DNA of 49,388 bases from Bacteroidales bacterium (GTDB taxonomy: Bacteria; Bacteroidota; Bacteroidia; Bacteroidales; UBA932). Below are positions 4,420 to 11,207 of this stretch, in pieces. Under the pieces are notes generated by a model. It saw only the letters and a program-made list of their open reading frames with translations. It did not search any database and was not told where the DNA came from. Location: the NCBI GenBank assembly GCA_017454905.1, contig JAFTCB010000021.1:1-49388 (forward strand), in the 5' to 3' direction. Both the position numbers and the translations under genes were made by a program. Position 1 is the first letter of the stretch. The number at the start of each line of letters is the position of its first letter.

Positions 4420-6102
4420 TCAGAGTGCCTCCGTGTCCCGGGTGATCCGGGACTCCCGGGCCTTGCGGACATAGAGACGGATGATGTCTGCGGGCAGTTT
4501 GCTGCCGCGCACGAAACGACGTGTCTCTTCCGGATGCTTGGCGAGGGCGGTGGCCAGCAGCCAGGCTGTCCCCATCTGCACATAATAGGGCTCTCCTGCC
4601 TGCAGTTCCATGCTTTCCAAGTCCCGGAAGGTCCGCTGCAGGTGCTCCCCGTCCAGGAAATGGCACATCAGGAACAGCAAACCCGTGCGCCGGGTGAATT
4701 CCGGCTGTCCGGATGCGATACATTCCAGGATGAACGGCCGGACTTCGTCTCCCCGCACCCACTTGGCGTTGCAGCAGAAGGTGTCGCACTGCGCCCAGTT
4801 GTCCAGGCGGGGAAGCAACTGCCGGATCCGGCGGATCCGCGTCTCCGGCGGGCATTTCATGTAGTCCAGCGTCAGCCCCCAGATCAGGCGTTCGTCGTGG
4901 GAAAGCTGCAGATCGGCTGCCCAGTCGTCCAGGATGTCCTCCAGGTCGTTGCGGCGGGCGATCGTGCGCGCGACGGACTTCATCTCCGGGGTATGCAGCC
5001 CCAGAATCTCGGTGCCCGGCACGGGAGCGATGATATGGATGTGTCCTTCGCGGTAATGCGCGTCAGTGCGGTAGCGTTCGCAGACCAGCGGCCCCAGGAC
5101 TTCTTCCCGGTAGAACCGGTTGAACAGCGTCCGCAGGGCGGCCTCGTCCCGGATCATGGCGCGGAGTTCGGCGAGTTTGCCGGCGTTGGGCGATTCGGGG
5201 ATCCAGAGCTTCAGGTAACCGCCCTCGGCGTATTTTTCGTGCAGATGGTCCAGGGTGCGCTGCCAATGCCCGGGCCGGGAAAGCTCCGGGTTGTGCGCCA
5301 GGCCGTACTGGACCGTGCGGCGGATGATCTGTTCCGGCTCGATGAGCCGATCTGCCTCGGCGATGATCCGTCCGTACAGGCTGCGGGGAGCATGGTCGGA
5401 CGAGGCACGGTGGTCCTCGGCCGCCTGGGCGATGGTCTCGATCTGTTCCGGAGAGAACCAGCGATGCAGTTCCTCCATTTCCCGGATCATCCGTCCGCTC
5501 TCCAGGTGATGCGTCTTGCGGTCCACCGCGAGGCCGAGGTCATGACAGGCGGCAGCGGCGTAGACCATGTTGCGGTCCACCGGGTAGTGACTGGCAAGCG
5601 CCAGCGCCCGGTTCACCACGGCACGGGCGTGGTCTTCCTGATGAGCCTTATCGAAGGCGGCATAGCGCGGGATGACCGATGTCTCCAGGAAAGCGGCAAG
5701 CGTCGCGTCCGTGCCGAGCAGTTCCGCCGCCAGGAGGGGCAGCAGGCCTTCGTCGGCAGGCAGCCAGTGCACGGCACGCAGTTCGGGGTATGCCAGCCAA
5801 CGGGCGGCCTCGTGCTCGTTCAGGTGAAGGGCCTCGCCCTGCAGGGTGCACAGGAAGCAATGCAGCGTGAGGTGGAAGGCCGGGTAGTCCCACTCGATCG
5901 TCTCCAGCAGGCGGCAGACATCGATCTGTGCATCCAGTTCTTCCCGGATTTCCCGCTTCAGCGCTTCCCGGGGTGTCTCTCCGGGCTCCATTTTCCCGCC
6001 GGGGAATTCCCACCAGTCCTTCCAGTCGCCATACCCGCGCTGCGTTGCGAAGATCTGTTCCCCGCGGCGGATGATGGCTGCTACGACTTCAAGTCTTTTC
6101 AT
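4420..6102 (-). CDS. three-domain NUDIX hydrolase - HD phosphohydrolase - AlkD-like DNA alkylation repair protein
   Basis: 560 residues, three domains in order. Residues ~1-130: NUDIX fold with Nudix box GGKMEPGETPREALKREIREEL (residues 35-57 region; G-x5-E-x7-RE-x2-EE pattern), resembling MutT/CTP-pyrophosphohydrolase types that clean oxidised nucleotides. Residues ~150-320: HD domain with DHARAVVNRALALA (H158), the CHDLG motif (H187, D188) and a later Asp (D251, AEADRLI). Residues ~335-560: AlkD-type HEAT-like repeat domain; ILGLHTPEMKSVAR opens it, and DNWAQCDTF gives W436 and D440, with W514 74 residues later. That matches the spacing of W109, D113 and W187 in Bacillus cereus AlkD as I recall it. 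The start is the ATG at 6102, 2 nt after the nudC stop, so it is co-transcribed with nudC. Likely a combined nucleotide-pool and DNA damage repair enzyme; substrates are inferred. Confidence 0.85.
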   Translation of the reverse strand: MKRLEVVAAIIRRGEQIFATQRGYGDWKDWWEFPGGKMEPGETPREALKREIREELDAQIDVCRLLETIEWDYPAFHLTLHCFLCTLQGEALHLNEHEAARWLAYPELRAVHWLPADEGLLPLLAAELLGTDATLAAFLETSVIPRYAAFDKAHQEDHARAVVNRALALASHYPVDRNMVYAAAACHDLGLAVDRKTHHLESGRMIREMEELHRWFSPEQIETIAQAAEDHRASSDHAPRSLYGRIIAEADRLIEPEQIIRRTVQYGLAHNPELSRPGHWQRTLDHLHEKYAEGGYLKLWIPESPNAGKLAELRAMIRDEAALRTLFNRFYREEVLGPLVCERYRTDAHYREGHIHIIAPVPGTEILGLHTPEMKSVARTIARRNDLEDILDDWAADLQLSHDERLIWGLTLDYMKCPPETRIRRIRQLLPRLDNWAQCDTFCCNAKWVRGDEVRPFILECIASGQPEFTRRTGLLFLMCHFLDGEHLQRTFRDLESMELQAGEPYYVQMGTAWLLATALAKHPEETRRFVRGSKLPADIIRLYVRKARESRITRDTEAL

Positions 6103-6104
6103 GC

Positions 6105-6887
6105 TCAATGGTTGTTGAAGCGTCTGTTGATCAGGCGCCAGGCAATCGATCCCGGCTTGGGCAGCGGAGGCAGGGCGTCCCGGCGGAACCAGCGGGCATC
6201 GGCGATCTCCGACTCCTGGATGCGGATCTCGCCGCTCTTCCAGTCGGCATAGAATGCGATCATCAGCTGGTCCGGGAAGGGCCAGCCCTGGCTGCCGGCG
6301 TACCGGATATTCTCCACTTCCAGCCCGGTCTCTTCCAGGACTTCGCGCCGGAGCGCCTGTTCCAAGGTCTCTCCGATCTCGACGAATCCGGCCAGGCAGG
6401 CATAGATGCCTGCACGGTCCCGGACGTTGCGCAGCAGCAGGATCTCGTCGCCCCGGCTGATCAGGGTGATGATGCAAGGCTCGATGCGCGGGAAATACAG
6501 GCTGCCGCAGGCGGGACATGCCAGCGCGCTCTCGCTGCCGTGGAGCTGCAGCGGTTGTCCGCAGCGGGAGCAGAAGCGGTTGGCATCCAGCCAGCGGGCG
6601 AGGCCGATCATCCGCGCCGCGCGGGCGTTCTCTTCGTCATTATGTGCAAAAAAATAAGCCGGCACCGCCGTAAAAGCGTATCCTTCCGGAGCACATGCCG
6701 CAGGATCCAGCATGACGCCGATGCTCCCGCAGGCCGGGTCTTCGCAGGTCTGCAGAATCAAAGAATCAAGGGAGGCGACAGCTCCCGCATCTGCGGCGTC
6801 GCCTCCCTGGTCAGTCAGGATCTCCCGTCCCCGGAAGATGTATGTCCGCTTCCCTTCCCAGGAAGTGATGTGGCCGAGAAGCGCCAT
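6105..6887 (-). CDS. nudC: NAD(+) diphosphatase / NADH pyrophosphatase (NudC)
   Basis: 260 residues, the usual NudC length. It has the N-terminal adapter domain, a four-cysteine zinc ribbon (C106, C109, C124, C127; CSRCG and CPACG), the Nudix box starting at G167 (GFVEIGETLEQALRREVLEETG) and the NudC signature after it, here SQGWPFPDQLM at residues 199-209 (family form SQPWPFPxS; the first Pro is Gly here). The enzyme splits NAD(H) into NMN(H) and AMP and, in E. coli, removes NAD caps from RNA. It is first in a two-gene operon with the NUDIX-HD-AlkD protein, so two Nudix hydrolases are made together. Confidence 0.93.
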   Translation of the reverse strand: MALLGHITSWEGKRTYIFRGREILTDQGGDAADAGAVASLDSLILQTCEDPACGSIGVMLDPAACAPEGYAFTAVPAYFFAHNDEENARAARMIGLARWLDANRFCSRCGQPLQLHGSESALACPACGSLYFPRIEPCIITLISRGDEILLLRNVRDRAGIYACLAGFVEIGETLEQALRREVLEETGLEVENIRYAGSQGWPFPDQLMIAFYADWKSGEIRIQESEIADARWFRRDALPPLPKPGSIAWRLINRRFNNH

Positions 6888-6896
6888 CCGGGTCTG

Positions 6897-7514
6897 TTAA
6901 TACCAGGGATTCTCGTTGGCCGGAGTACGGATATCGCTCAGGCACTGGATGTCATTGAGGAACCACTCGCCGGTGCTGCCCTTCTGGCGGAGCTTGATGG
7001 AACGGGGGTTGTCGGCACCGCCGGAACGCACCCAAATCGTTGCCCAGCCGGCATTCTGGAAGGTATAAGGATTGCTCTCGGGACGGAACTTGTAAGGATT
7101 GCTCGGGGTATAGTTGTTGTTCGGCGTAGCGCCCTGGAAGTAGGAACGCGGCTTGTAGGTCTTTCCGGTCAGGCGCTCTTTGATGAACTGCTTTTCGTAG
7201 GTAGAGAGGCTTTCGGGGCCCTTCAGCCAGTTGAGCATCTCGAAGCAGTCTTCCGGGTTGGTCTCATAGCGGCAAAGCGCGGCGATCACCAGGGCGGCGA
7301 CTCCGTAGGGATCCTTCATGTTGGCTTCCGGAAGCTTCTGAAGCTGCTCGAGGTTCTCCGGGAGGTTGTAGAACGTGTAGGTCTTGATGCCGCCGTTCAG
7401 CAGGGAGCCGGTATTGATGCCGGCGTTGTTGGCGACATTCTTGAGTGCGCTGCACCCCGCGAGCAGGGCGACAGTGGCTGCGAGTGCGGCCGCGATACTG
7501 AGAATTCGTTTCAT
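6897..7514 (-). CDS. lipoprotein, DUF6935-like
   Basis: 205 residues. The N-terminus is a textbook lipoprotein signal ending in LLAGC (Cys21), so it should be anchored in the periplasm or outer membrane. The body has no catalytic motif I know. The pattern DPYGVAALVIAALCRY, ML..LKGPESLSTYEKQFIKERL, and SYFQGATPNNNYTPSNPY, ending with a beta strand containing SIKLRQKGSTGEWFL, matches my memory of DUF6935, an uncharacterised Bacteroidetes/Firmicutes family. It is transcribed away from the beta-helix gene, from a TATATTTG box at 7550-7557. Ten nt before its ATG lies AACCTCTAAA, shared with the aquaporin leader. Confidence 0.75.
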   Translation of the reverse strand: MKRILSIAAALAATVALLAGCSALKNVANNAGINTGSLLNGGIKTYTFYNLPENLEQLQKLPEANMKDPYGVAALVIAALCRYETNPEDCFEMLNWLKGPESLSTYEKQFIKERLTGKTYKPRSYFQGATPNNNYTPSNPYKFRPESNPYTFQNAGWATIWVRSGGADNPRSIKLRQKGSTGEWFLNDIQCLSDIRTPANENPWY

Positions 7515-10775: not shown

Positions 10776-10796
10776 TAACAACCAACCTTTTTGCTC

Positions 10797-11207
10797 ATGA
10801 AAAAGATCATCCCCCTCTTGCTCGCATCCCTGTTCCTGCTGACCGGGATCGAGGCGCGTGCCCAGCGCGTGGAGAATGCTTCCCGCAGCACCATCGGTTA
10901 TATCAACAGCAATGGCCGGATCGAGAATGCCTCCCGCAGCACGGTCGGCTATTTCTACGGCGAACGCGTGGAGAATGCCTCCCGCAGCACCATCGGCTAT
11001 ATCACCAGCAGCGGACGCTTCGAGAATGCTTCCCGCAGCACCATCGGATACTATAGCAACGGCCGCGTGGAGAATGCCTCCCGCAGCACAGTCGGCTATG
11101 TGAACAACGGCCGCGTGGAGAACGCGTCCCGCAGCACCATCGGCTATTATGATACATCGATCAAGCCGGAATGGGTTGCCTTCTATTTCTTCTTCCTCAA
11201 GAGGTAG
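10797..11207 (+). CDS. secreted repeat protein, '5-fold beta-flower'-like
   Basis: 136 residues. A signal peptide ends at ARAQ (residue ~23). The mature protein is almost wholly six near-identical repeats of 16-17 residues, consensus R-[VIF]-ENASRST-[IV]-GY-x(4)-G (residues 24-117), then a C-terminal cap PEWVAFYFFFLKR. Short repeats with an IGY strand and a hydrophobic phenylalanine-rich end are what I recall of Bacteroides proteins named 5-fold beta-flower; the fit is by pattern only. The start is the ATG at 10797, preceded in frame by TTG CTC. Function unknown; probably periplasmic or surface-exposed. It ends before the terminator at 11237. Confidence 0.75.
   Translation: MKKIIPLLLASLFLLTGIEARAQRVENASRSTIGYINSNGRIENASRSTVGYFYGERVENASRSTIGYITSSGRFENASRSTIGYYSNGRVENASRSTVGYVNNGRVENASRSTIGYYDTSIKPEWVAFYFFFLKR
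10866..11147 (+). repeat. six in-frame tandem repeats of 48-51 bp
   Basis: Units encode R-x-ENASRST-x-GY-x(4)-G. The core GAGAATGC(C/T)TCCCGCAGCAC is nearly unchanged at DNA level in all six, with occasional silent changes, so the copies look young or kept alike by recombination. Confidence 0.9.

Follow-up and report, generated by a model that had tools for sequence, protein, structure and literature searches.

The gene described here lies in a stretch of 49,388 nucleotides (the window) from contig JAFTCB010000021.1 of a Bacteroidales bacterium of the UBA932 lineage, whose genome (G000) is a 2.4 Mb draft in 62 contigs, 82% complete. It is encoded on the minus strand, from an ATG at 6102 to a stop at 4420, and counts 560 codons; the longer stop-to-stop frame amounts to 738 aa, and the start MKRLEVVAAIIR was picked to agree with the relatives of the protein. 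As reported earlier, nudC is located immediately upstream on the same strand, its end (6887 to 6105) being separated by 2 nt from the start of the triple-domain gene (6102 to 4420). The nudC product was identified as an NAD(+) diphosphatase by NCBIfam NF001299 (235 bits versus a cut-off of 158), and its zinc ribbon (PF09297) was found by Pfam. The DUF6935 gene that precedes nudC is possibly the first gene of a predicted operon comprising nudC and the triple-domain gene, and a DUF4491 gene is found 69 nt downstream of the latter. It should be noted that an open frame of 572 aa crosses the triple-domain gene on the opposite strand (4534-6252, plus strand); because further long antisense frames are present in the window, open frames by themselves say little here. 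Elsewhere in the window, a plus-strand frame of 138 aa (10791-11207) consists mostly of a short repeated motif resembling ENASRSTIGY.

Table 1. Genes and protein domains at the locus, with the evidence for each.
Feature	Position in the window	Strand	Evidence
Nudix-HD-AlkD-like triple-domain gene, 560 aa	4420..6102	-	open frame, Pfam, same architecture in relatives, dN/dS
Nudix domain, residues 1-125, MutT/CTP-pyrophosphohydrolase-like	5728..6102	-	Pfam, 3gwy, box conservation, Foldseek
HD phosphohydrolase domain, residues about 134-331	5110..5703	-	Pfam, conservation (A2, A5), 2pq7, YedJ
AlkD-like HEAT-repeat domain, residues 332-560; W436, D440, R472, W514	4420..5109	-	Pfam, BcAlkD alignment, invariance, Foldseek
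nudC, NAD(+) diphosphatase with zinc ribbon	6105..6887	-	NCBIfam NF001299, Pfam
DUF6935 protein gene	6897..7514	-	Pfam PF22043 (4e-56); 9 nt upstream of nudC

In agreement with the earlier note, which described one 560-residue frame with Nudix, HD and AlkD-like domains, Pfam placed NUDIX at residues 3-110 (6e-22), HD at residues 157-253 (4e-10) and DNA_alkylation at residues 363-534 (9e-12), each above its curated gathering score, and H158, H187-D188, D251, W436, D440 and W514 were found at the positions given there. The same architecture occurs in four genomes, namely G000, G094, G279 (on the same contig as locus L002) and that of L003. Compared with G279, the whole frame shows a dN/dS of about 0.15, and the junction between the HD and AlkD-like domains (residues 331-365) gives 0.15 against G279 and 0.10 against G094. 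Identity over the junction reaches 77% to G279, 89% to G094 and 66% to L003, identity alone being reported for L003 because dS was not computable. An assembly or frame artefact that merges separate genes, a danger already raised in the earlier note, might be suspected in a draft of 62 contigs that is 82% complete; since the assemblies of G094, G279/L002 and L003 share both the architecture and the junction, and the junction is conserved at the dN/dS values above, we consider such an artefact extremely improbable. The triple-domain gene is under purifying selection in every domain and across the junction. Taken together, these results confirm that it is a genuine, selected, single-chain combination of known enzyme families.

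The Nudix domain carries the box GX5EX7REUXEE (G36, E42, R50, E51, E54 and E55), which is invariant in 21 of 21 rows of the alignment, and Asp57 takes the place of its final Gly. Its closest solved structure is 3gwy, a putative CTP pyrophosphohydrolase of Bacteroides fragilis (1e-26; 42% identity), followed by MutT2 and then MutT, and Foldseek also returned 3gwy and MutT2. The domain remains below the NCBIfam equivalog cut-offs for MutT (83.2 of 97.9 bits) and NudG (PRK10546, 73.3 of 156). The Nudix module is predicted to be a MutT/NudG-type hydrolase that would take pyrophosphate off nucleoside triphosphates, probably damaged or modified ones.

The motif residues of the HD domain are H158, H187-D188, H198-H199, H231 and D251. 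The H..HD..D metal motif (H158, H187, D188 and D251) was present in 30 of 30 rows and the two extra histidines located between HD and D (H199 and H231) in 31 of 31; identical invariants were obtained in alignment A5 (20 rows). In PMC8177086, two such histidines are presented as the mark of a dinuclear HD site, as in YqeK, and the motif of the triple-domain protein appears to be of this YqeK-like dinuclear type. The HD profile matched 2pq7 (4e-8) and YedJ (1e-7) in the PDB and, weakly, YqeK (2o08, 0.07), and the domain missed the NCBIfam equivalog cut-off for YedJ (PRK10119, 26.7 of 286 bits). With its extended H..HD..H..H..D motif, the HD module would be a phosphohydrolase, probably acting on a nucleotide phosphate.

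The extra histidines, diagnostic for a dinuclear site according to the same paper (PMC8177086), and the weak YqeK match are compatible with another reading, in which the substrates of the Nudix-HD half, acting together with NudC, would be alarmones or signalling dinucleotides (Ap4A-like, NAD-type) and not damaged triphosphates, the AlkD part being a passenger. The proximity of nudC points in the same direction, but this adjacency is not general: among 180 loci with flanks of differing length, and setting aside the window's own stretches (L102 and L150), nudC was found beside an HD gene in L013, L097 (G096) and L098 (G149) only, and it does not adjoin the triple-domain gene in L130 (G094) or L003, about 285 bases upstream in L134 being too short to judge. 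Furthermore, the Nudix domain is nearest to CTP/MutT-type pyrophosphohydrolases and the HD profile prefers 2pq7 and YedJ. We therefore hold the dinucleotide reading to be improbable. Because the adjacency of nudC is specific to the window's lineage, the proposal made earlier that NudC gives rise to a four-activity operon is weak, and it is not supported as a general arrangement.

The AlkD-like domain passed the PF08713 gathering score (45.5 bits, cut-off 21), and its profile, built from the wider set A3, retrieved Bacillus cereus AlkD (BcAlkD; E 4e-11) as the only confident profile match in the PDB. In this alignment, W436, D440, R472 and W514 were paired with W109, D113, R148 and W187 of BcAlkD, Arg148 being a catalytic residue of AlkD as well. 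Trp109, Asp113 and Trp187 are catalytic in AlkD according to PMC8626424. The equivalents of the four residues do not vary in 34 of 34 rows (33 different retrieved sequences and that of the window's own protein, which is thus present twice) or in 22 of 22 rows of set A3, a range of sequences that goes down to about 30% identity; the same holds for all 17 rows of an alignment with four canonical AlkDs among them. The claim that the spacing of W436, D440 and W514 is that of AlkD holds in so far as these residues do pair with W109, D113 and W187, but the spacing of 74 is partly coincidental, because the sub-spacings through R472 are 32+42 here versus 35+39 in AlkD.

A model of the AlkD-like domain alone was built from five sequences (pLDDT 74, pTM 0.72). 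Relatives were also sought in viruses: the A1 search gave none, and the A3 search returned L180 and L181, two distant loci with a standalone AlkD-like gene, which were used solely to deepen the AlkD model. With this model, Foldseek returned BcAlkD at ranks 1-3 and 5-8, the AlkD-DNA complexes matching best; the best match, 5clb, is a moderate one (TM 0.60, probability 1.00, E 0.034), and no match of the AlkD-only model reached E 0.001. The modelled domain is consistent with an AlkD-like alpha-solenoid fold, at the level of this moderate match. Residues 17-43 of the model (about 341-367 of the protein), the site of AlkD's B-helix, have a pLDDT below 50, and in the alignment the four canonical AlkDs have 5 residues more in the B-helix segment. 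This low-confidence region matters since AlkD2, which is without the DNA-penetrating B-helix, is without excision activity (PMC4433238). AlkF, AlkG and AlkD2 indicate that the AlkD fold can exist without excision (PMC4433238). The AlkD2 structures from Streptococcus mutans (3L9T/4X8Q), if represented in the searched set, were not among the PDB matches of the A3 profile at E<=1, and membership of the domain in AlkD2, though possible, is not supported.

The AlkD-like module would most likely excise cationic N3/N7-alkylpurines from DNA by the non-flipping mechanism of AlkD, W436 and W514 contacting the lesion and D440 helping catalysis. Alternatively, the module might be a DNA-binding or structural HEAT-like scaffold without excision activity that positions or stabilises the Nudix-HD part, like AlkD2, AlkF/AlkG and the C-terminal domain of Porphyromonas gingivalis DPP III (PgDPP III). 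As for the latter protein, its full-length form did not rescue alkylation-sensitive E. coli exposed to MMS, the P. gingivalis AlkD did, and the peptidase part expressed alone was about 1000-fold weaker (PMC5708649). Deletion of a Listeria AlkD-like protein led to poorer survival in MMS (PMC4988193). The scaffold reading also agrees with an N-terminal cap unlike that of canonical AlkD, with the attachment of similar modules to unrelated partners (GNAT and MsrA) and with the retention of canonical AlkD beside the AlkD-like protein in some genomes. A pure scaffold, by contrast, need not retain four active-site residues that are invariant down to the identity level given above, and the rarity with which the two forms co-occur, described below, argues in the same sense; we therefore regard the scaffold as unlikely, though a serious contender. 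Base excision by the AlkD-like half, judged from residue conservation and co-occurrence, is slightly favoured. The corresponding claim of the earlier note, that this half excises alkylated bases, is accordingly kept in part: the invariant residues, the AlkD-DNA complexes as best structural matches and the rare company of canonical AlkD in the genus are consistent with it, and the differing cap and the failed complementation by full-length PgDPP III (PMC5708649) speak against it.

The AlkD-like subfamily was found in 67 of 400 congeners. Canonical AlkD is present in the same genus (best PF08713 match per genome 1e-36 or better), is distinct from the AlkD-like subfamily and was called at E <1e-20; a match in G118 (E 9.5e-4) was left out of the AlkD counts because it sits in a 595-aa frame like one in G079. 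Among 121 congeners, 61 have canonical AlkD, 25 the AlkD-like form, 2 both (G033, whose AlkD-like copy belongs to the wider A3 type, and G105) and 37 neither (p 9e-7), and among the 53 congeners that are at least 90% complete these numbers are 30, 13, 1 and 11 (p 5e-5), all co-occurrence values being from Fisher tests that ignore kinship. Across the order (295 genomes), canonical AlkD accompanies 5 or 6 of 25 carriers of the AlkD-like form compared with 188 of 270 other genomes (p 2e-6 or 1e-5), G619 (canonical match 8e-21) being counted with and without and G606 being taken as one of the genomes outside the listed matches. Outside the genus, 6 of 23 carriers have canonical AlkD (p 5e-5); both forms are held by G520, G672, G479, G583, G428 and perhaps G619, three of which (G672, G479 and G583) carry an MsrA-AlkD fusion. 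In the contigs of G000, no second PF08713 match was found beyond the triple-domain gene, and as this genome is 82% complete a canonical copy could have been missed.

Kinship was considered on an rpoB tree of 72 rows (77 of the 121 genomes matched, 5 partial matches dropped, 44 genomes without a match), which included 18 of the 25 AlkD-like carriers. On this tree, G000 groups with the canonical AlkD carriers G057, G096 and G079 (support 100), and G094, G011, G043 and G007 are also near canonical AlkD carriers. Over 8 independent pairs differing in the AlkD-like form, canonical AlkD differed in the opposite sense in about 5.1, in the same sense in 0.3 and not at all in 2.6 (median sign-test p 0.06). 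The rare co-occurrence suggests that the AlkD-like module displaced canonical AlkD in the genus, the pairs on the rpoB tree being only suggestive. Concerning other alkylation glycosylases, Tag (PF03352) and AAG/MPG (PF02245) were found in none of the 12 genomes searched, of which eight carry AlkD fusions and four Nudix-HD. HhH-GPD proteins number one or two per genome, Nth, MutY and AlkA being counted together.

The distribution of partial architectures gives indications on how the triple-domain gene was assembled. When 400 congeners were queried with Nudix-HD, the matches listed comprised the triple architecture in three (G000, G094 and G279), HD-AlkD in five (G014, G268, G371, G105 and G189) and Nudix-HD without AlkD in at least 20 by match range, ten of these also being seen as loci and the other ten being recognised solely from the match range and the length of the frame; among these matches, HD and Nudix usually stand in separate genes. 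On the AlkD tree (59 rows), the four triple-domain proteins and three HD-AlkD proteins are united in one clade (99/99) in which the window's protein adjoins the HD-AlkD protein of G014 (98/79). The HD tree (74 rows) recovers the same group of four and three (SH-aLRT 91), nested in a set that contains all 13 Nudix-HD rows (86). From these groupings, a single gain of the AlkD module by the group is probable, and so is repeated gain or loss of the Nudix module. The HD-AlkD proteins of G105 and G189 may represent a second, independent event: a separate origin is suggested by the HD tree, but the AlkD tree is compatible with a single clade (AU p 0.25). HD-only relatives stop at a position corresponding to about residue 331-343 of the triple-domain protein, and the start of standalone AlkD-like proteins falls near the equivalent of residue 332, so the fusion appears seamless; residues 320-339 are modelled as a single helix. 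As to the order of joining, the AlkD module would have been attached to the C-terminal end of the HD domain, near residue 332. No AlkD remnants were found behind the Nudix-HD genes in the loci examined (tblastn, E 0.01). The L012 match that extends past about residue 336 was set aside as a chance tail after a stop rather than an AlkD remnant.

The survey of fusions proposed earlier yielded Nudix-HD, HD-AlkD, MsrA-AlkD, GNAT-AlkD and MGMT-HD in the genus or the order. Within the genus, 11 of the 67 AlkD-like carriers were seen with a fusion. MsrA is joined to the AlkD-like module in four genomes of another family (L157, 961-2142, on which alone Pfam was run, L159, L160 and L162) and to canonical AlkD in the genus, by Pfam in G055 and G020 (L284:1332-2531 and L286:953-2236) and by N-terminal sequence and frame in G065 (L285). 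A 545-aa protein of G025 (L287:2025-3659) combines HD_4, whose score is below the cut-off, with MsrA and canonical AlkD, and HD_4-MsrA-AlkD is a second, unrelated triple fusion in the genus. GNAT precedes the AlkD-like module in G106 and G015 (L137:463-1860 and L139:6528-7805). In Candidatus Cryptobacteroides onthequi (L021:1330-2526), an MGMT domain with an intact PCHR motif, above the Pfam cut-off and just below that of NCBIfam ogt, is fused to an HD domain of the same subfamily as that of the triple-domain protein; GNAT-HD was seen in L042 and L065, both below the cut-off. MsrA-AlkD, HD_4-MsrA-AlkD, GNAT-AlkD and MGMT-HD show that repair enzymes were joined repeatedly. The 919-aa frame of L026 has no Pfam match before HD and may be a mere open frame instead of a fusion, and EamA-Nudix in L056 may be two genes sharing one frame.

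Some proteins of the survey carry unassigned parts. The 432-aa protein of L138 (5872-7170) has an AlkD-like C-terminal half, and Pfam gave no match at E 0.01 for its N-terminal half (about 190 aa). In L288 (839-2074) and L289 (1322-2560), canonical AlkD carries about 170 further residues at its C-terminus, for which Pfam gave none at E 0.001.

We thus favour, with a probability of about 0.55, a single chain with three catalytic modules, the Nudix module acting on triphosphates, the HD module on a nucleotide phosphate and the AlkD-like module excising alkylpurines, as predicted from sequence families and conserved residues. These modules would share expression as one chain, any further coupling being conjecture. 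Nearly as credible is a fusion of bookkeeping only, in which short neighbouring genes were merged and the three enzymes are active independently, with no functional coupling. The modules do occur alone or in other combinations in the genus, as shown by the mostly separate HD and Nudix genes and by the minority of AlkD-like carriers with a fusion, their partners are varied (GNAT, MsrA and MGMT), and in G014 the HD-AlkD gene is followed after 3 nt by a Nudix gene. Against mere merging, the triple architecture is maintained under selection in four genomes and the fusion partners look like damage or stress enzymes, an impression for which there is no background rate of all fusions to compare. Going beyond the three-module chain, a more speculative and rather doubtful proposal is that the genus repeatedly welds repair enzymes into damage-control chains, that canonical AlkD was functionally displaced by a divergent clade of AlkD-like modules, some of them borne by such chains, and that one protein would watch over the nucleotide pool as well as alkylated DNA.

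Should the AlkD-like module prove active, the HEAT-like repeat glycosylases would gain a further branch, some of whose members are joined to nucleotide-cleaning enzymes, from an uncultured lineage with relatives found mainly in rumen and gut. Given how rarely the module shares a genome with canonical AlkD, a functional swap between the two could be put to a direct test. That fusions with MsrA, MGMT, Nudix and HD recur would be natural evidence of joint pathway use, and would help to assign substrates to the HD phosphohydrolase subfamily of the triple-domain protein. No description of a Nudix, HD and AlkD fusion, or of a fused Nudix DNA alkylation repair protein, was found in the openly licensed PMC literature, and as far as this literature shows Nudix-HD-AlkD-like is a new combination of known families.

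Each module nevertheless has recognisable counterparts. The Nudix domain shares its box and fold with the CTP pyrophosphohydrolase/MutT group (3GWY, MutT2, E. coli MutT and Orf135) but misses the equivalog cut-offs for MutT and NudG and is fused to HD and AlkD-like domains. The HD domain has the H..HD..D core of YedJ, of 2PQ7-type hydrolases and of YqeK, with extra conserved histidines as in the latter, but the similarity is distant only and the domain forms its own subfamily with a conserved C-terminal region. On the AlkD side, S. mutans AlkD2 (4X8Q, 3L9T) is likewise AlkD-related and HEAT-like with an altered N-terminal cap, and lacks excision activity (PMC4433238). The closest published case is PgDPP III (PG_0317; PMC5708649), also a Bacteroidales protein with an AlkD-like domain C-terminal to another enzyme; its partner is a peptidase, and its full-length form gave no alkylation rescue. 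The best structural match is B. cereus AlkD (3BVS, 3JX7, 5CL3-5CLB), which has in common with the triple-domain protein the PF08713 fold and the equivalents of W109, D113, R148 and W187, whereas the domain described here belongs to a divergent subfamily with a shorter and different N-terminal cap and stands behind Nudix and HD domains.
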